NCBI GenBank assembly: GCA_947644195.1
Contig: CANRZB010000029.1
Coordinates: forward strand, 1-47,601
Length of the DNA: 47,601 bases
From: an uncultured Clostridium sp.
GTDB taxonomy: Bacteria > Bacillota > Clostridia > Lachnospirales > Lachnospiraceae
Direction: 5' to 3'
A program made the translations under genes and the position numbers. The notes under the pieces were generated by a model, which was not told where the DNA came from, made no database searches, and was given only the letters and a program-made list of their open reading frames with translations. This document shows positions 4,368 to 47,601 of this stretch, piece after piece (the stretch's first letter is position 1; every line of letters begins with the position of its first letter).

Positions 4368-4944
4368 GGAACAGCATTTCCTTGTTGCCCTTAACCATTT
4401 CTCGCACAGGGATCATTTTCTGTTATCCGTCATTTACCCGATTCCTTCTGCTGTTTCGCCTGATAAAGACATGATATGTCCGATGAGGCAAAATTTGCCC
4501 TGCCTGGCAAATTTACGCCCTTCGGAAAAACGATCTGCCTTGCGTGCCGTATTGTCTATTCGCGTGCTCGTGCGCAAAACTTCCCACATGCTACGTTTGT
4601 ATGTTTCTTTTACGGGCAATTTGAATACGCCGGTACTTACGAGGTGTTTTTTACCTCGTTATGTACCGCTGCGTATGAAATTTAGCGCAAGTGTGCCCGA
4701 AAAAGAAACTACAAACCGTGCATGCGTGTTCAGACAGTGCTTCCGAGCACGCACAGATACGTCACTGCAAGGCAGAGTTTCTCTCGAAGGGCTATTGCAC
4801 AACGGCAGGGCAAAATTTTGTCTGAATCGGACATTGCTGCTAACTTTTGAGCGAAACAACAGAAGAAATATCAAAATTTGACGGATAACAGAAAATGATC
4901 CTGTTGAAATACATTTCATAGAGCAACAAGGAAATGCTGTTGCC
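4368..4944. repeat. Large imperfect palindromic element, copy 1 (about 577 bp)
   Basis: The whole interval folds on itself as one giant imperfect inverted repeat. Its ends read GGAACAGCATTTCCTTGTTGCC on the left and the inverse of AGGCAACAGCATTTCCTTGTTGC on the right. Moving inward, both arms carry GATCATTTTCTGTTATCCGTC, TGCTGTTTCG-like, TGTCCGAT and CAAAATTTGCCCTGCC-like blocks in matching order. The centre near 4638-4658 is ACGAGGT, a T-rich loop, ACCTCGT. It holds no convincing gene: the reading frames present are short, lack ribosome sites and are not shared with copy 2. Related copies are at 32029-32482, 7134-7266 and 47431-47601. No transposase is present; a MITE-like non-autonomous element is one possibility and a structured-RNA or boundary element another. 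Confidence 0.85.
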
Positions 4945-4945
4945 T

Positions 4946-4992
4946 AAAAAAACTGGGCAGAGGAACCTCCCTAAATTCCACCGCCCAGTTTT
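4946..4992 (-). terminator. Rho-independent terminator of the blaI-blaR1-like operon
   Basis: On the minus strand, just past the BlaR1-like stop codon, AAAACTGGGC pairs with GCCCAGTTTT across a loop of about 24 bases and is followed by a run of T. The stem is perfect and the flanking A/T tracts would let it work in both directions. It abuts the end of palindromic element copy 1. Confidence 0.85.
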
Positions 4993-4993
4993 C

Positions 4994-6526
4994 TTACATA
5001 ATTTCTGTCATATCTGTAATGATCCATCCCGAACCAATAAATTCACAAGTATAACGGTAACTCTGTTTGACTATCTTAGAAGTACCATCGCCATAGTGCA
5101 CCAGGATTTCTTCCGAAGAATCCACAGCGACGCAATCGGCCGTTCTCTTGATTGCAGAAGATATGGTATATTCTTTCACTTCCTCACGGATCCCGCGTTT
5201 ATAGTAATTCTTCACAATTGCACACTGCTGTTGGTAAACATCGCTGCCGGGAAGCAATACCTCGTCAAGCTGATCGGTGCTGCCGGTATTTACCGCATTA
5301 GTAAATACGGTAATATATCGGTCGAATGCCTCCTCATAAGAGGCAGCGGCATCTGTCGCTGTCCGGTCATCCGCGGAAATACTTTGTCGTACCTGCATTG
5401 CCTGTTCCTGCTGCGACGCCTTGGCTTCCAAACCGTCATTCTCTCCTGCCAGATTCCCAATCCCGGAACTGCACGTCACCCCAACTGCTACGGCTAATGC
5501 TGCCGCCAGCGGCAGCATCATCCACCTAGAATATCTTCTCTTTCCACCAATAGCACGGATTCTCTGCTCCATTTCCCTGCCCTTTTTGCTCATCAGCAGC
5601 ATGGAATAACGAAAATCTCCCCATTGGCCGTTCCCCGCCAGCCTCACTAACATTCTGCCATAGCGGAAACGATTTTCCTCACCCAGCAAACGAATGACCG
5701 TTTCATCACAGTAAAGCTCAGCATCTTTTTTGGAACAGGAAGAAGCCAGCCAGACAAACGGATGATACCAATGAATAGATACCACCAGCATACGGAACAT
5801 CGCCCAAAGATGATCCCGATGACAGTAATGCACATACTCATGGGTAATCATCTGCTCCCGTTCCTCCTCACTTACCTTCCTATCACTGTCCTGCATAACC
5901 AGAGCAGATGGCAGATAGATGGCAGGTTTGAAGCATCCATAGAGACACGGTGTCTGTAAAATAGATACGGTATATATTTTTACCCGTCCTCTCTGTCCAT
6001 AGAACACCCGGTTCCTTTTCAATGCATGCAGCAATGTCACGTTGGACACAAAAAACCATAACAGCAGCAATACGGCAATAAACGTCCTGCCATAACGGAA
6101 AAACGAACGATTCCAAAATGCGTAAAATTGACTGCCGGCTCCCTGCAATACAGCAGAAGAACTTTCTTCCAGATTTCGTACTCCATAGGTAGAATTTGTC
6201 CGGGAAGGTTCCGTCAAATCTTGCTCCACTCCAATCCCTGTCTGAAGCGTGCGACCTGCGTCCCGGCTTTCCCTGCCTTGATCCGCCTTCTCTTTTTCTA
6301 CAGACCGCTCTGCCTGCTCCCATGCAGTAAAGGCTTTGGGAAATAGATTGGCGACGCTGACCGGTGTAGAAAATACATTGACCGGAATCAGAAAGCGCAG
6401 TAAAACTACAATCCACAGCGAATAAATTACCGCATAATGGATCTTTCCCATAAAGATCTTGCGAATCCCAATTACCAGCAGAACCAATAGAGAGGATTCC
6501 AGCATCCATTCCAAAAAAGTTCCCAT
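4994..6526 (-). CDS. BlaR1/MecR1-like M56 family membrane metallopeptidase with C-terminal sensor-like domain
   Basis: A 510-residue protein predicted to sense an envelope signal and cleave its partner BlaI-like repressor. The N-terminus has hydrophobic segments at about residues 8-24, 33-48 and 145-165. The M56 zinc protease domain contains HEYVH at 229-233 (His229, Glu230, His233), followed by HPFVW at 255-259 and DAELYCDE at 268-275, which supplies the third ligand. A further membrane segment lies near 335-355. The outer C-terminal domain (about 395-510) is not a penicillin-binding domain: it has no SxxK, SxN or KTG and looks NTF2/TcaA-like, so the signal is probably not a beta-lactam acylating this protein. 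It lies 8 bp after the BlaI-like gene and is cotranscribed with it. Start at 6526 is the only good N-terminus. Confidence 0.85.
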   Translation of the reverse strand: MGTFLEWMLESSLLVLLVIGIRKIFMGKIHYAVIYSLWIVVLLRFLIPVNVFSTPVSVANLFPKAFTAWEQAERSVEKEKADQGRESRDAGRTLQTGIGVEQDLTEPSRTNSTYGVRNLEESSSAVLQGAGSQFYAFWNRSFFRYGRTFIAVLLLLWFFVSNVTLLHALKRNRVFYGQRGRVKIYTVSILQTPCLYGCFKPAIYLPSALVMQDSDRKVSEEEREQMITHEYVHYCHRDHLWAMFRMLVVSIHWYHPFVWLASSCSKKDAELYCDETVIRLLGEENRFRYGRMLVRLAGNGQWGDFRYSMLLMSKKGREMEQRIRAIGGKRRYSRWMMLPLAAALAVAVGVTCSSGIGNLAGENDGLEAKASQQEQAMQVRQSISADDRTATDAAASYEEAFDRYITVFTNAVNTGSTDQLDEVLLPGSDVYQQQCAIVKNYYKRGIREEVKEYTISSAIKRTADCVAVDSSEEILVHYGDGTSKIVKQSYRYTCEFIGSGWIITDMTEIM

Positions 6527-6534
6527 CGCTTTCC

Positions 6535-6966
6535 CTACTTTCTTTTCTTACTGACCGTTTTTTCCTTTGTGTTACCTGCCTTATTTTGTGCCTCTTCCAA
6601 AATCTCCTGTAGCTCCCGGATATCCTCCCCGGACAAATCATTCTGACGCAGCAGGGCACTCATCATCATCCCAACACTGCCATCATAAATCCGCTGCAGG
6701 AAATCCCTGGTCTCCTGAACGACCACATCCTCTTTTTCTACCTTCGCATAGAAAAACTTTGTCTTCCCCTGCTCCTCATATCCAATTAACCCCTTCTCCG
6801 TCATTCTCCTTACCATGGTCGCACAGGTGCTTTTGCTCCATCCCACCCGATCTTTTAACACTGGTACAAGCTGCATTAACGATCTCGGTGATTCTTCCCA
6901 CAGACAGTTCATCAAATACCATTCACTGTTTGTTACATGAATTTCCTGTTTCAAAATGTTCTCCAT
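6535..6966 (-). CDS. BlaI/MecI/CopY family transcriptional repressor
   Basis: A 143-residue winged-helix repressor (PF03965 type). The DNA-binding domain spans about residues 7-75, with VTNSEWYLMNCLWEESPRSL, then VGWSKSTCATMVRRMTEKGLIGYEEQGKTKFFY, the classic recognition helix and wing. The C-terminal dimerisation region (about 80-125) would hold the protease cut site. I chose the ATG at 6966; an in-frame TTG at 6987 is possible, but the AAGGAG upstream is about 22 bases from it, too far. It heads a two-gene operon with the M56 protease and has an operator-like dyad directly after its own -10. The same operator word occurs at the divergent acyltransferase promoter, so it probably represses both. 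Confidence 0.9.
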   Translation of the reverse strand: MENILKQEIHVTNSEWYLMNCLWEESPRSLMQLVPVLKDRVGWSKSTCATMVRRMTEKGLIGYEEQGKTKFFYAKVEKEDVVVQETRDFLQRIYDGSVGMMMSALLRQNDLSGEDIRELQEILEEAQNKAGNTKEKTVSKKRK

Positions 6967-7065
6967 TTCCGTGCTGATTCTACACAACAGAATTCAGTCA
7001 CTTATCTTGCTCCTTGGAAAGCAGGAACCGGCATCAGCATAACCGAATTTAACCCCTGTCTTTCA

Positions 7066-7112
7066 ATTTACGTTGTAAACCATATTATAGGATATTCAGT
7101 TTAATTCGTCAA
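7066..7112 (-). promoter_or_regulatory. Promoter and BlaI-type operator of the blaI-blaR1-like operon
   Basis: On the minus strand, TTGACG (7112-7107), a 17-base spacer and TATAAT (7089-7084) form a strong sigma-A promoter. Two bases after the -10 comes GGTTTACAACGTAAAT (7081-7066), whose core is the dyad TTTAC-GTT-GTAAA (7067-7079), placed over the likely transcription start. BlaI/MecI/CopY proteins bind such short dyads, so this is a likely autoregulatory operator. Confidence 0.8.
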
Positions 7113-7133
7113 CCATTCTTTTCCAAAAAACAC

Positions 7134-7266
7134 GGAAATCAATTTTAGAATGTTATCCTTTACCGATGATTTCTGACAGGCAATTTTCTGTTATTCATTA
7201 AATTTCATCATTTACCCTGCTGTTTCGTTCAGAAGTTTTCCATGATGTCCGATGAGACAAAATTAA
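7134..7266. repeat. Palindromic element family, copy 3: solo arm
   Basis: One arm only. It starts GGAAATCAATTTTAGAATG and carries the family blocks ATTTTCTGTTATTC, TGCTGTTTCGTTCAGAA and ATGTCCGATGAGACAAAATT, then breaks off before the CCCTGCC block. By eye it differs from the arm at 47431-47562 by about six substitutions and one indel, so the two belong to the same subfamily. It lies between the blaI-like promoter (21 bp away) and the acyltransferase promoter (10 bp away). Confidence 0.8.
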
Positions 7267-7276
7267 AAACAAAAGA

Positions 7277-7323
7277 TTGACAATATAGACCTTTGATCTT
7301 ATAATTGGTTTACAATATAAATC
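7277..7323 (+). promoter_or_regulatory. Consensus promoter and BlaI-type operator before the acyltransferase gene
   Basis: TTGACA (7277-7282), a spacer of 17 and TATAAT (7300-7305) give a perfect sigma-A promoter. One base later comes GGTTTACAATATAAATC (7307-7323), nearly the same word as the operator at the blaI-like promoter and in the same position over the start site. The -35 region itself (TTGACAATATAGACC) echoes the word. A perfect promoter with an overlapping operator suggests tight repression with strong induction. Confidence 0.78.
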
Positions 7324-7392
7324 TATTGCCATGCCAACACCCATAATTTAAGGGACAGTCGGTACCTAAACGCAGCAGAATGGAGGATTCCG

Positions 7393-8364
7393 ATGAAAAA
7401 TTATCATGTACCACAGAAAAAGAACAACCTGGAGTTATTACGCGGCGTCGGTATTATAGGAATTGTACTCTACCACGCCTTTCCTGCCATCGTTCCTGGC
7501 GGATTCCTCGGCGTCCCCCTATTCTTTGTCCTGTCCGGTTATCTCATGTTTACCAGCAGCAACTACCAATGGAAACAAGGAACCTTTCGTATCCGTACCT
7601 ATTATCAAAAAAGGCTGACACGGATCCTGCCACCCCTATTTGTGATGGTTATGAGCGTATGCTGCTGCCTGACCCTTTTTCACCGCAGCTGGTTAATAGG
7701 AATTCGGCATGAAGTTTTCAGCATTTTTCTGGGATATAATAACTGGTGGCAAATCGGACAGCATGCCTCCTATTTTACTAAAAACCTTACTTCCCCATTT
7801 ACCCATCTCTGGTTCCTGGCAGTAGAATTCCAATGCTATCTACTATGGCCGTTTTTGTTTCTACTGTACCAGAAGGGTCTCCAGTGGATCGGCGGCAGAA
7901 AAATGTGCTTCCTCTTCGCTGCGCTTGCCCTATTATCTGCAGCTAGAATGTTCTGCCTCTATGTTCCGGGAAGCGACCCTTCCCGTGTCTATTACGGCAC
8001 CGATACGATGGCTTTTCCCCTGTTGATCGGTATGTTTCTCGGGGCTGTCCGATCCCAATATAAAAGCCTCTGCTTTCCGGTTTCCCCGCAGACCGCACAT
8101 GCCGTCTTTCTCTGTTTTTTGCTCTGCCTGTGCTCCCTGTTTCTATTGGTCGACGGGCAGACGGACCATCTCTACCAGGGTGGATTGTGGATGATTAGCC
8201 TGTTTTTTGCGGGTATCATCCATCTCCTGGAAAACCAGCAGGAAGCCGGAAGTGAAACCCGCACGGCTCCCCTGCTCTACCAGCTTGGCAGACACAGCTA
8301 CCAGATCTATCTCTGGCATTATCCCATCATGATCCTGGTACAACGAATCGGATGCTTCCTATAA
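7393..8364 (+). CDS. Acyltransferase-3 family membrane protein, OatA-like membrane half
   Basis: A 323-residue polytopic membrane protein predicted to pass acetyl groups from cytoplasmic acetyl-CoA to the outer face, as in OatA-type peptidoglycan O-acetylation. Family features: NNLELLRGVGIIGIVLYHAF with the key His (about residue 28), GGFLGVPLFFVLSGYLM, a basic loop RTYYQKRLTRILPPL, HLWFLAVEFQCYLLWPF (OatA has HxWSLxxExQFY here) and IYLWHYPIM near the end. About nine to ten membrane segments are visible. Unlike OatA, it ends after the membrane domain; the SGNH domain is the next gene. The ATG has GGAGG six bases upstream. Other acyltransferase-3 proteins modify lipids or sugars, so the substrate is inferred from the neighbour. 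Confidence 0.88.
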   Translation: MKNYHVPQKKNNLELLRGVGIIGIVLYHAFPAIVPGGFLGVPLFFVLSGYLMFTSSNYQWKQGTFRIRTYYQKRLTRILPPLFVMVMSVCCCLTLFHRSWLIGIRHEVFSIFLGYNNWWQIGQHASYFTKNLTSPFTHLWFLAVEFQCYLLWPFLFLLYQKGLQWIGGRKMCFLFAALALLSAARMFCLYVPGSDPSRVYYGTDTMAFPLLIGMFLGAVRSQYKSLCFPVSPQTAHAVFLCFLLCLCSLFLLVDGQTDHLYQGGLWMISLFFAGIIHLLENQQEAGSETRTAPLLYQLGRHSYQIYLWHYPIMILVQRIGCFL

Positions 8365-8458
8365 GCCATCACGTTTTCTAACTGTCAGATCAGAATCTCA
8401 GCATGCCTATCACAAAAGTAACTTTTTAACCCATAAAATCCCTGGAAAGGAGATTACT

Positions 8459-9235
8459 ATGCATCAGAATATCAGAAAAAAAATACAGTCTAGCACAAAG
8501 CTTTTTGCCTTATTGTTTTGTACCGTCGTGGGAGGTTATGGAATCTCCACCGCCCCGGAATCCGACCAGAGTGCATTAGAGCAAGAATTAAACAGAAATA
8601 AACAAATCCTGGAACAATGGGATCATATTAACTTAGTAGGAACCGGCAATACAAACACTGCGAATCCAGATACTGCAAAAGATTCCTCTGGCACAGATCC
8701 CATAGAGGGAAATTCCACCGGTTCTCCCTCCTCAACCGTCACTATAGAACCATCTCTATCTGTCATCGGGGACTCTGTTTTTCTGGGGGCAGCGCCTGCC
8801 TACAAAAAAATAGTCAAAGATGTCGCGATTGATGCAAAAATTTCCCGCCAGGTATCCCATGGACTGGATGTCGCTAAAAAATTGGCAGCCAAGGGGAAAC
8901 TAGGCAATACCGTGCTGATTTCCCTGGGTACCAACGGAAAATTCAACGAGGCAACCGGCCAGGCAATCGTTGATTATCTGGGCAAAGACCGCACTGTTTA
9001 CTGGATTACCGCTTACGGAAAAAAACTGGACTGGCAAAAAGAGGTCAACCAGACCATCCGAACACTGGCGAAGAAAAATGAAAACGTACATGTCATTGAC
9101 TGGGCCAAAGAAGCCCAGAAACATCCTGGCTGGTTCTATCAGGATGGAATTCACTTAAATACCAAAGGACAAAACGGATTTGCCCGGTTTATTGCCGCCG
9201 AATCCACACCTGCATCTCATTCTCGCCACGATTAG
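8459..9235 (+). CDS. Secreted SGNH/GDSL hydrolase-fold acetyltransferase, OatA-like extracellular half
   Basis: A 258-residue protein with a basic N-terminus and hydrophobic segment (about 14-30, signal peptide or anchor), a low-complexity Thr/Ser/Asn linker (about 58-95) and an SGNH domain. Block I is GDSV with Ser106 as nucleophile; block III is GTNG with Asn159; block V is DGIHLN with Asp229 and His232. In OatA the same catalytic set moves acetyl to the C6 hydroxyl of MurNAc, giving lysozyme resistance. Here it is a separate gene 94 bp after the acyltransferase-3 gene, with AAAGGAG before the ATG, so the pair looks like a split OatA. Its last 47 bases overlap the convergent GH127 gene. A wall or polysaccharide esterase is the main alternative. 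Confidence 0.85.
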   Translation: MHQNIRKKIQSSTKLFALLFCTVVGGYGISTAPESDQSALEQELNRNKQILEQWDHINLVGTGNTNTANPDTAKDSSGTDPIEGNSTGSPSSTVTIEPSLSVIGDSVFLGAAPAYKKIVKDVAIDAKISRQVSHGLDVAKKLAAKGKLGNTVLISLGTNGKFNEATGQAIVDYLGKDRTVYWITAYGKKLDWQKEVNQTIRTLAKKNENVHVIDWAKEAQKHPGWFYQDGIHLNTKGQNGFARFIAAESTPASHSRHD

Positions 9236-11210
9236 CCCAGGTATAATAAGGAACCAAATGTAATGTGACTGGTTTCCGACTCCCCTTCCGTGCATCATGA
9301 TACAATTCGTCGGTTTCCACCGCTTCCTGGCGGAACCCGGCGACAGCAATCCCTTTCACGGAAGCGGAGGCGACCTGCCGTTCCTCTAACACGGGCTCGG
9401 CATCCGTACAGATGCTTATCAAATGGAGATCCCTGCCCTGATCTACTTCCTCCATACAGTATACGACCGGACCACGCATGACTGCAACTTTCCCAATGTC
9501 TTCCCGCACCCTGGTGTCTGCCTCCAGAAAACGAATCTCCATAGGAAAATCTAACAGGATTTGATCCTGTTCTTTCCATCGCCTGGTAATATAGAGATAT
9601 CCCTCCCGCTCTTCGATTGCAGCATCCTCTGCTTCCAGCTGATAGGTATCACACCAGTCCGGAATCCGGCAAGCAATCGTAAAAACAGCGTCCACTCCCC
9701 GAACCTGGATCTTGACCGCTCCATCCCAAGGATGACCGGATTCTATAGAAATCTCTGCCATTTTTCCGGCAATATCTTTGTGGATCACTGCACCGATATA
9801 GAGATGCACAAACAAGGTATCTTCTGTGGCTGTATATGCATAGGATCCCACAGACCCCAACAAACGCGCCAGATTCGGCGGGCAGCAGGCACATCCAAAC
9901 CATTTCTGGCGAACCGCCTTGACATGAAACTTCCGTTCATCCAACCTGCATGCTTCGGGCGCCACCTCTAAAGGATTGACATAAAAGAAACTCCTGCCAT
10001 CTAACGCCATTCCACTGAGGATTCCATTATACAATGCCCGCTCCATCACATTGGCATATTTGGCAGCAGGATGGATCTGCAACATTCTCCTGGCAAAAAA
10101 GACGAGTCCAATAGAAGCACAGGTTTCAGCATAAGCGGTATCATTGGGTAAATCATAGGCAAAAGAAAATGCTTCCCCGATATGCGTCCCTCCGATTCCT
10201 CCCGTGATATACATCTTTTTCTGCGTCATATTGTCCCAAAGACGCTCACACGCCTCATAGAGCGAGGAATCCTCATAGTATCTGGCGAGATCTGCCATAC
10301 CGGAATACAGATATACCCCGCGCACAGCATGTCCAACTGCTTCCGTCTGTCGGCGCACCGGCAGATGTGCCTGATAATACTGATAGCGGAGTTCCTGTTC
10401 TTCCCTCGCAGAGATCTTCCACGCCTGATCTTCCCGATCAAAATAATAGGGTCTCTGTCCCCTCTCATTGACAAAGAAATAACTCAGATCCAGATACCGC
10501 TTCTCCCCCGTCACTTCATAAAGACGCACCAGCGCCATTTCTGCAATCTCATGCCCCGGATAACCTTTACATTGGTTCTCGCCCGTACCAAAAAATCCAT
10601 TGATATAATCTGCAAATTTTCGGGCCGCCTCCAACAGTCGCATTTTCCCGGTAGCTTGATAATAGGCAACAGCAGCCTCTGCCAGATGCCCAAAACAATA
10701 TAATTCGTGATGGTCCCGAAGATTGGTAAAAATCTGATCCATCCCACCAATGATATAATAGGTATCCAGATATCCATTTTCCTGCTGCGCCGCACAGACC
10801 GCATCGATCGCCTGATCCGCCAAATTTTCCAACTCCTGGTCTGGATGCTGGGACAGCGAATACGCTACCGATTCAATCCATTTATATAAATCACTGTCCT
10901 GGAAAACAAAACCATAAAATTTCTCCTCTAACGGTTTCCCATCCTCGGGCAGCGACTGAAATCCCCGAAAAGTAAACTTCGGTTCTTCAAAGTCACTCCC
11001 CTTGTTCCTGCGCTCCTGATTCTGGCGGCCCGCCACCTGAAAATTGCGCATGCAAAAACTGGGATCTGCCTCTGGAATCTGGTCGTTTAATGCACGCCAT
11101 TGGTATGGAATGATTTCCCGCCGAACCAATTCCATTCTCTCTCCCCAAAAATCATCGGTAATCTGTATTTGCTGCAAAGGCAGCGGTGTGTTTCTCTCCT
11201 CTTTTTTCAC
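9189..11210 (-). CDS. Glycoside hydrolase family 127, beta-L-arabinofuranosidase
   Basis: A 673-residue enzyme related to HypBA1, which removes beta-L-arabinofuranose from plant hydroxyproline-linked arabinans. The zinc/Cys active site is intact: Glu362 and Cys364 in YAETCAS, Cys442 and Cys443 in GCACCPPN, matching the Glu338, Cys340, Cys417, Cys418 spacing of HypBA1, with Glu346 matching Glu322. The N-terminal (alpha/alpha)6 barrel has GHLAEAAVAYYQATG and GHAVRGVYLYSGMAD; the C-terminal beta domain ends YYTWANRGENEMQVW, typical of the family. There is no signal peptide, so it acts on imported sugars. The start is GTG with AGGAG upstream. It overlaps the convergent SGNH gene by 47 bp. No transporter or regulator adjoins it, so it seems to be a lone catabolic gene. 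Confidence 0.9.
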   Translation of the reverse strand: MKKEERNTPLPLQQIQITDDFWGERMELVRREIIPYQWRALNDQIPEADPSFCMRNFQVAGRQNQERRNKGSDFEEPKFTFRGFQSLPEDGKPLEEKFYGFVFQDSDLYKWIESVAYSLSQHPDQELENLADQAIDAVCAAQQENGYLDTYYIIGGMDQIFTNLRDHHELYCFGHLAEAAVAYYQATGKMRLLEAARKFADYINGFFGTGENQCKGYPGHEIAEMALVRLYEVTGEKRYLDLSYFFVNERGQRPYYFDREDQAWKISAREEQELRYQYYQAHLPVRRQTEAVGHAVRGVYLYSGMADLARYYEDSSLYEACERLWDNMTQKKMYITGGIGGTHIGEAFSFAYDLPNDTAYAETCASIGLVFFARRMLQIHPAAKYANVMERALYNGILSGMALDGRSFFYVNPLEVAPEACRLDERKFHVKAVRQKWFGCACCPPNLARLLGSVGSYAYTATEDTLFVHLYIGAVIHKDIAGKMAEISIESGHPWDGAVKIQVRGVDAVFTIACRIPDWCDTYQLEAEDAAIEEREGYLYITRRWKEQDQILLDFPMEIRFLEADTRVREDIGKVAVMRGPVVYCMEEVDQGRDLHLISICTDAEPVLEERQVASASVKGIAVAGFRQEAVETDELYHDARKGSRKPVTLHLVPYYTWANRGENEMQVWIRRQ

Positions 11211-47422: not shown

Positions 47423-47430
47423 ATCGCCAT

Positions 47431-47601
47431 GGAAATCAATTTTTGAATGTTATCCTTTACCGATGATTTCTGACAGGTCATTTTCTGTTATTCATTAAAT
47501 TTCATCATCTACTCTGCTGTTTCGTTCAGAAATTTTCATGATGTCCGATGAGACAAAATTTTGCCCTGCCATAGTGCAATAGCCTTTCGAAAGAAACTCT
47601 G
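47431..47601. repeat. Palindromic element family, copy 4 (runs off the right edge)
   Basis: It begins GGAAATCAATTTTTGAATG, is nearly the same as solo arm copy 3 up to ACAAAATT, then continues with TTGCCCTGCCATAGTGCAATAG and AAGAAACTCTG, which match the inverse of the right arm of copy 1. Only the first arm is inside the window. The terminus lies 9 bp beyond the LexA box and 22 bp upstream of the uvrA -35. Confidence 0.8.

Follow-up and report, generated by a model that had tools for sequence, protein, structure and literature searches.

In the BlaI-BlaR1 and MecI-MecR1 systems of staphylococci and Bacillus licheniformis, the gene of a BlaI-family repressor adjoins that of an M56 (HEXXH) protease that has four membrane segments, and inverted-repeat operators mark both the promoter of the repressor and a target gene transcribed divergently; BlaR1 has been described as cleaving BlaI directly, at Asn101-Phe102 (PMC9834060). 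Two further repressors of this family, BlaI_0696 and BlaI_1845 of Clostridium thermocellum, control small regulons through two inverted-repeat pairs per target promoter, read as four protomers, and a putative peptidoglycan-synthesis homologue is part of the BlaI_1845 operon (PMC8457756). The locus described here lies in a window of 47,601 nucleotides (contig CANRZB010000029.1, the whole stretch of DNA analyzed) from an uncultured Clostridium sp. of the Lachnospiraceae, and comprises a blaI-blaR pair on the minus strand and, divergent from it, an operon of two plus-strand genes resembling the two halves of the peptidoglycan O-acetyltransferase OatA. It shares with BlaI-BlaR1 and MecI-MecR1 the adjoining repressor and protease genes and the operators at both promoters, and differs from them in a TcaA/NTF2-like domain in place of the penicillin-binding sensor, in the residues aligned with the cleavage site (Ala-Leu instead of Asn-Phe) and in its target, an O-acetyltransferase operon. 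Judged from its sequence, it is quite likely to be a two-operon, proteolytically switched repressor regulon for peptidoglycan O-acetylation.

An original prediction for this DNA had placed one operator word just after the -10 of two divergent, near-perfect promoters. Both promoters were recovered, that of blaI-blaR (TTGACG-17-TATAAT, 7084-7112, minus strand) with 11 of 12 matching positions and that of the acyltransferase operon (TTGACA-17-TATAAT, 7277-7305, plus strand) with all 12, and they ranked top among six promoter-like sites in the region 4700-9400, for which shuffled sequences yielded 7.3 promoter-like sites of any score. The word was present without mismatches at both, starting 2 nt after TATAAT on the minus strand (GGTTTACAACGTAAAT, 7066-7081) and 1 nt after it on the plus strand (GGTTTACAATATAAAT, 7307-7322); the start at 7307 agreed with the position given earlier, whereas the end given then, 7323, was one base too far for the word. 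Reading of the promoters also revealed a second, similar dyad over each -35, which the earlier account lacked. At the repressor's own promoter the two dyads were GGTTGACGAATTAAACT (7098-7114, minus strand, over the -35) and GGTTTACAACGTAAATT (7065-7081, minus strand, just past the -10), and at the acyltransferase promoter GATTGACAATATAGACC (7275-7291, plus strand, over the -35) and GGTTTACAATATAAATC (7307-7323, plus strand, past the -10), the word being contained in the downstream dyad in both cases. Dyad centres were 33 bp apart at the former and 32 bp apart at the latter, approximately three helical turns. Two inverted-repeat pairs per promoter is also the arrangement of the C. thermocellum regulons, but the half-site here was GGTTTAC (dyad roughly GGTTTAC-N3-GTAAAYC) and not GTCTAT/GACTAT.

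Perfect copies of the word occurred in the 3.44-Mb genome only at these two sites. With two mismatches allowed, 13 copies were found, against 19 for the reversed control; the loose word alone was thus not enriched and proves little, and because it was no commoner than its control the analysis turned to the promoter with two dyads. A looser form of the word, GGTTTACANNRTAAA, was restricted to the two window promoters within this genome; across the 28 genomes of the genus it matched at 24 sites, spread over 16 genomes, and its control at 14, spread over 12. Of the 24 sites, 11 stood at blaI or AT3. The dual-dyad promoter pattern, TTGACNNNNTARACN{7,10}TATAATN{0,13}TTTAC, gave ten matches in six of the 28 genomes and none for the reversed control: six preceded AT3 (G000, G006, G008, G020, G024 and G026) and four preceded blaI (G000, G008, G024 and G026). 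Hence GGTTTACANNRTAAA is only moderately specific and the dual pattern specific; what exceeds chance is the mismatch-free word at its place in the promoter, together with its conservation.

Relatives of the SGNH protein encoded by the second acyltransferase gene were found in nine of 61 genomes, all nine within the genus, and the AT3 promoter was readable in eight of them, that of G025 being cut at a contig end. Conservation of the word in relatives with this gene pair, a check set beforehand, was borne out by a dual operator at seven of the eight readable acyltransferase promoters, and the divergent layout of blaI and AT3 likewise recurred (G011, G320, L115, L121, L129, L155, L173 and L193). 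In G011 the AT3 and SGNH genes were on different contigs and the -10 of the AT3 promoter was TATAGT. The SGNH gene and blaI were about 90 kb apart on the same contig in G006 and on different contigs in G008 and G024; the operator was kept in all three with the operons apart, indicating that it follows the gene and is no by-product of a shared intergenic region. A tandem AT3-SGNH-blaI-blaR order, with an operator for each operon, was found in G026. The one readable promoter without a dual operator was that of G004 (99% complete), a genome with no blaI ortholog (best match 33% identity). Of the two dyads, this AT3 promoter (TTGATA-17-TATAAT) kept the first alone, in a worn form (GGTTGATATGTTAAAAT), which suggests joint loss of repressor and operator. 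In an alignment of seven diverged promoters, from which G020 (near-identical to G006), G008 and G024 (longer spacing) and G004 were omitted, the conserved columns clustered in the dyads and the -10, apart from isolated ones scattered over the rest. The blaI ortholog and the SGNH gene, called at a 70% identity threshold of our own choosing, occurred together in 7 of the 28 genomes, alone in 2 and 1, and 18 had neither (p 2.2e-4 by Fisher's test); among the 17 genomes of high quality the corresponding counts were 5, 1, 0 and 11 (p 9.7e-4), these p values being indicative only because the genomes are related.

At the family level, 18 of 397 genomes had an SGNH match at E<=1e-30. Among the 17 other than the window genome, the operator was present in three (G320, G159 and G336), each beside a divergently oriented blaI that was 71-78% identical across the portion within the locus; none was found in the remaining 14 loci within the 3.4-3.7 kb fetched, and two of these (L211 and L215) had no AT3 gene within that length either. 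When a single genome from each of 84,980 species was scanned with the pattern TTGACNNNNTARACN{14,28}GTTTACANNRTAAA, 94 stretches matched, and the 80 returned as loci were classified. These 80 held 83 sites: 43 before a BlaI-family gene, 17 before an AT3 gene of this family and 6 cut off. The gap between the boxes was 17 or 18, as in the window, at 15 of the 17 AT3 sites and 25 at two, and the AT3 sites plus the window represent 18 species-level genomes, several of them shared with the G-labelled genus and family genomes. Many of the BlaI proteins recovered (L114-L192) were 38-52% identical to the repressor, came mostly from Oscillospiraceae and other Clostridia, and had the dual operator before their own gene; their BlaR partners reached 1499 aa and so probably carry other sensor domains. 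The operator is therefore probably older than this regulon, the acyltransferase being one attachment. In a tree of 32 AT3 rows (truncated and duplicate loci omitted, except two rows identical to others), a branch of 20 rows was recovered with an ultrafast bootstrap of 100 and an SH-aLRT (Shimodaira-Hasegawa-like approximate likelihood ratio test) value of 95. The operator was present in 19 of these rows, the twentieth being G004, and in none of the 12 rows outside, namely the split pair L212 and L214, split L213 and nine fused OatA-like forms. In three other Lachnospiraceae assemblies (loci L126, L154, L160, L179 and L190) the dual operator preceded lipoprotein-like gene pairs or small secreted proteins, perhaps extra members of a wider regulon there. 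Further sites, before flavin-reductase-like genes or in Bacteroidaceae and SAR86, look by eye like other regulators or chance.

The repressor gene (6535-6987, minus strand) encodes a BlaI/MecI-family protein (PF03965, E 1e-26, 94 bits against a cut-off of 22.6) that matched MecI (1okr) at E 6.3e-16 and was 71-84% identical to 12 relatives. Translation probably begins at the TTG at 6954, which follows GGAG, gives a protein of 139 aa and is where several relatives begin. The adjoining gene (4994-6526, minus strand) encodes a BlaR-like membrane metalloprotease of 510 aa (PF05569, E 1.5e-38) with four membrane segments predicted from hydropathy, an M56 domain at residues 177-326 and the HEXXH motif, as HEYVH, at 229-233; H229, E230, H233 and E270 were invariant in the 12 aligned sequences (the window's and 11 relatives). 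As had been proposed, no penicillin-binding domain was found in it. Its place was taken by a C-terminal TcaA_5th NTF2-like domain (PF22819, residues 397-506, encoded at 5009-5338 on the minus strand; 46.2 bits against a cut-off of 23.6), predicted to be extracellular and a putative sensor, which was present in all 12 near-complete sequences scanned, the window's own and those at least 38% identical to it. The likeness to TcaA is limited to this C-terminal domain: TcaA is described as a single-span protein with an intracellular zinc finger (PMC10328498), and the window protein has four segments and an M56 domain instead. Searching PDB sequences with a profile of the sensor domain turned up no credible relative, the top matches being designed or repetitive helical proteins, and a structure comparison returned no TcaA entry among the matches listed, which excludes nothing. 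Of the four BlaR-like proteins of this genome that were examined, three lacked a penicillin-binding domain. In one paralogous pair (L077:6484-9130), BlaR ended in leucine-rich repeats of the BspA type, so that the sensor attached to the M56 module varies; this pair carried a different promoter dyad, GGTTGACATATGC...GCATATGTCAACC.

The gene behind the plus-strand promoter had been called OatA-like. The resemblance held, but the function was divided between two genes separated by 94 nt, not carried by one fused polypeptide as in OatA; fused forms are present in other members of the bacterial family. The first (7393-8364, plus strand) encodes an AT3 membrane acyltransferase of 323 aa, equivalent to the N-terminal half of OatA (PF01757, E 6e-31, 108.1 bits against a cut-off of 31). 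The second (8459-9235, plus strand) encodes a putative SGNH O-acetyltransferase of 258 aa, equivalent to the C-terminal half, with one hydrophobic segment (residues 15-33) as N-terminal membrane anchor, and is the only SGNH gene of this kind in the genome (E<=0.001). Its best solved matches were 6vjp (E 3.6e-19) and 6wn9 (1.1e-18), which we take to be Staphylococcus aureus OatA, then 5ufy (1e-5) and 5ug1 (2.4e-5), and the next SGNH enzyme reached only 0.57. The entry 5UFY is the pneumococcal OatA domain, and the motifs described for OatA include Block II, (V/I)(G/S)(R/V), and Block III, G(T/V)N (PMC5697884). Blocks I, II, III and V, the likeness to OatA of Gram-positive bacteria, were found in the window protein, with ISR as Block II and GTN as Block III. 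Among 15 members, the motifs with the catalytic Ser, Asp and His (GDS in Block I and D-G-[IT]-H in Block V) and Block II were present in all, and Block III in 13, the other two having GIN. Besides its control by a BlaI-type operator, the locus thus differs from OatA in forming two proteins from two genes, a split resembling the PatA/PatB arrangement of Gram-negative bacteria (PMC6174289). Standalone AT3 proteins have been suggested to act with an unknown partner (PMC9833829), and the AT3-SGNH gene pair looks like a natural case of this.

The regulon is supported at the level of sequence by its genes and motifs, the dual operators and their conservation, and the co-distribution of the two operons; from these we infer repressor binding and cleavage, the polymer acetylated and the signal. 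A BlaI-family dimer would bind both dyads of each promoter, that over the -35 as well as that over the expected start site, and the bound dimers would block RNA polymerase, repressing both the blaI-blaR and the AT3-SGNH operons. A signal at the envelope, most probably damage to the wall or a wall ligand, would act on the outer TcaA/NTF2-like domain and activate the BlaR-like metalloprotease, which would then cleave the repressor, perhaps at Ala111-Leu112, leading to expression of both operons. AT3 would move acetyl groups through the membrane for transfer to peptidoglycan by the anchored SGNH protein.

In other systems, cell-wall acetylation blocks lysozyme, and wall O-acetylation is under the control of sigma-V. 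The sigma-V/RsiV pathway of Bacillus subtilis and Enterococcus faecalis ties regulated proteolysis to lysozyme resistance (PMC4183432, PMC5014341, PMC2836378). Regulated proteolysis is likewise predicted here from sequence, but it would act on a repressor instead of an anti-sigma factor, and the protease and sensor differ. A more specific proposal, tentative at best, is that the TcaA/NTF2-like domain binds damaged or lysozyme-cut peptidoglycan directly, as its receptor, and that this ligand binding activates the protease, giving a lysozyme-inducible O-acetylation switch in gut Lachnospiraceae that evolved by a sensor swap in a penicillin-resistance module, independently of sigma-V/RsiV.

Other explanations were weighed against this regulon. 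The regulation could be the same and the polymer another one, with AT3-SGNH acetylating teichoic acid, capsule or a glycoprotein sugar as part of a surface-decoration regulon: AT3 proteins are described as modifying many carbohydrates (PMC9833829), the split gene order is unlike the classical fused OatA, and the window AT3 shared only 33-40% identity with eight AT3 domains from fused OatA-like proteins of the family, and 20% over part of the ninth. The SGNH protein speaks for peptidoglycan instead, through the gap between its matches to the OatA entries and the next enzyme and through an OatA-specific Block II (V/I-G/S-R; motif from PMC5697884) in all 15 members, which leaves the surface-decoration reading rather improbable. 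It is improbable, too, that the operon belongs to a beta-lactam response in which the repressor-protease pair senses beta-lactams or the resulting wall fragments and O-acetylation is an accessory defence. The BlaI and M56 homology and the peptidoglycan fragment described as triggering a BlaI-controlled response in B. licheniformis (PMC3305447) would fit such a role. However, the BlaR-like protein lacks a penicillin-binding domain and scored 85.3 bits with blaR1_generic against a cut-off of 400; a separate true BlaR1 (622.6 bits, PF00905) with its own BlaI is encoded on contig C10 of the same genome; and no beta-lactamase or resistant transpeptidase stood behind the operator, the dual form preceding only AT3-SGNH and blaI-blaR in this genome and GGTTTACANNRTAAA marking the same two promoters. 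The missing penicillin-binding domain and the operator conservation thus support the earlier view of a wall-modification regulon and not a beta-lactamase system.

Chance could account for the words, as could promoter-like similarity within an AT-rich intergenic region or descent from a multicopy repeat lying between the promoters. The lack of enrichment of the loose word and the 14 control matches to the 24 genus sites of GGTTTACANNRTAAA are what such an origin would predict, but the ten dual sites against none in the control, all at the same two operons, and the confinement of conservation in diverged promoters mainly to the dyads and the -10 make it barely credible. Unless some other protein were shown to bind the dyads, the comparison across genomes already refutes this explanation. 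Derivation from the repeat was rejected because the repeat is limited to 7130-7264 and includes neither operator.

Several observations weigh against the proposed O-acetylation regulon. When mapped on MecI, the known cleavage site Asn101-Phe102 corresponds here to Ala111-Leu112, which was invariant in all 13 aligned repressor sequences, and the Pfam score of the SGNH protein (31.4) was just below the curated cut-off (32.9). G020 (76% complete) had the operator and AT3-SGNH with no blaI ortholog found; conversely, G018 (79% complete) had blaI, at a promoter keeping the -35 dyad only, with no AT3-SGNH found, and the blaI promoter of G006 kept the first dyad, the second being degraded. Of the 83 sites of the all-species scan, 17 preceded other genes, and more distant BlaI proteins in other bacterial families use the same operator, so that the operator alone does not identify this ortholog. 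Moreover, the operator pattern itself had served to find nine of the 20 rows in the AT3 branch; among the remaining 11, with the window counted, ten have the operator.

Neither half of the O-acetylation regulon is new as a kind, BlaR-like proteins without a penicillin-binding domain recurring in this genome and OatA being well known. In the open-licence PMC literature, no title or abstract opening among the matches listed joined BlaI to the control of an O-acetyltransferase or described a BlaI-type regulon for a split OatA with a TcaA-type sensor, and the search for TcaA/NTF2 returned unrelated papers only. The C. thermocellum regulons of BlaI_0696 and BlaI_1845 were linked by their authors to the beta-lactam response, and the section on them names no O-acetyltransferase (PMC8457756). 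BlaI/BlaR1 pairs readily pass for beta-lactam resistance genes; the wiring found here points to wall modification, so that resistance surveys of gut bacteria can be misled by annotations of this kind. If the regulon operates as proposed, it would add a further route, beside sigma-V, by which regulated proteolysis switches lysozyme resistance on, and its TcaA/NTF2-like sensor domain would offer a ligand to seek directly.

The final 47 bases of the SGNH gene are overlapped by a convergent minus-strand gene (9189-11210), presumably a glycoside hydrolase by its appearance. Between the divergent promoters lies a 135-bp multicopy interspersed repeat (7130-7264). An 80-bp probe from it gave 37 matches in the genome, itself included, many of them near contig ends, and a partial copy lay upstream of a paralogous blaI on contig C15. 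Among nine other copies compared, two (L233 and L237) were inverted pairs spanning about 590 and 470 bp, resembling miniature inverted-repeat transposable elements (MITEs). A further copy was found at 47428-47502, close to the end of the window contig, suggesting that the element breaks the assembly.

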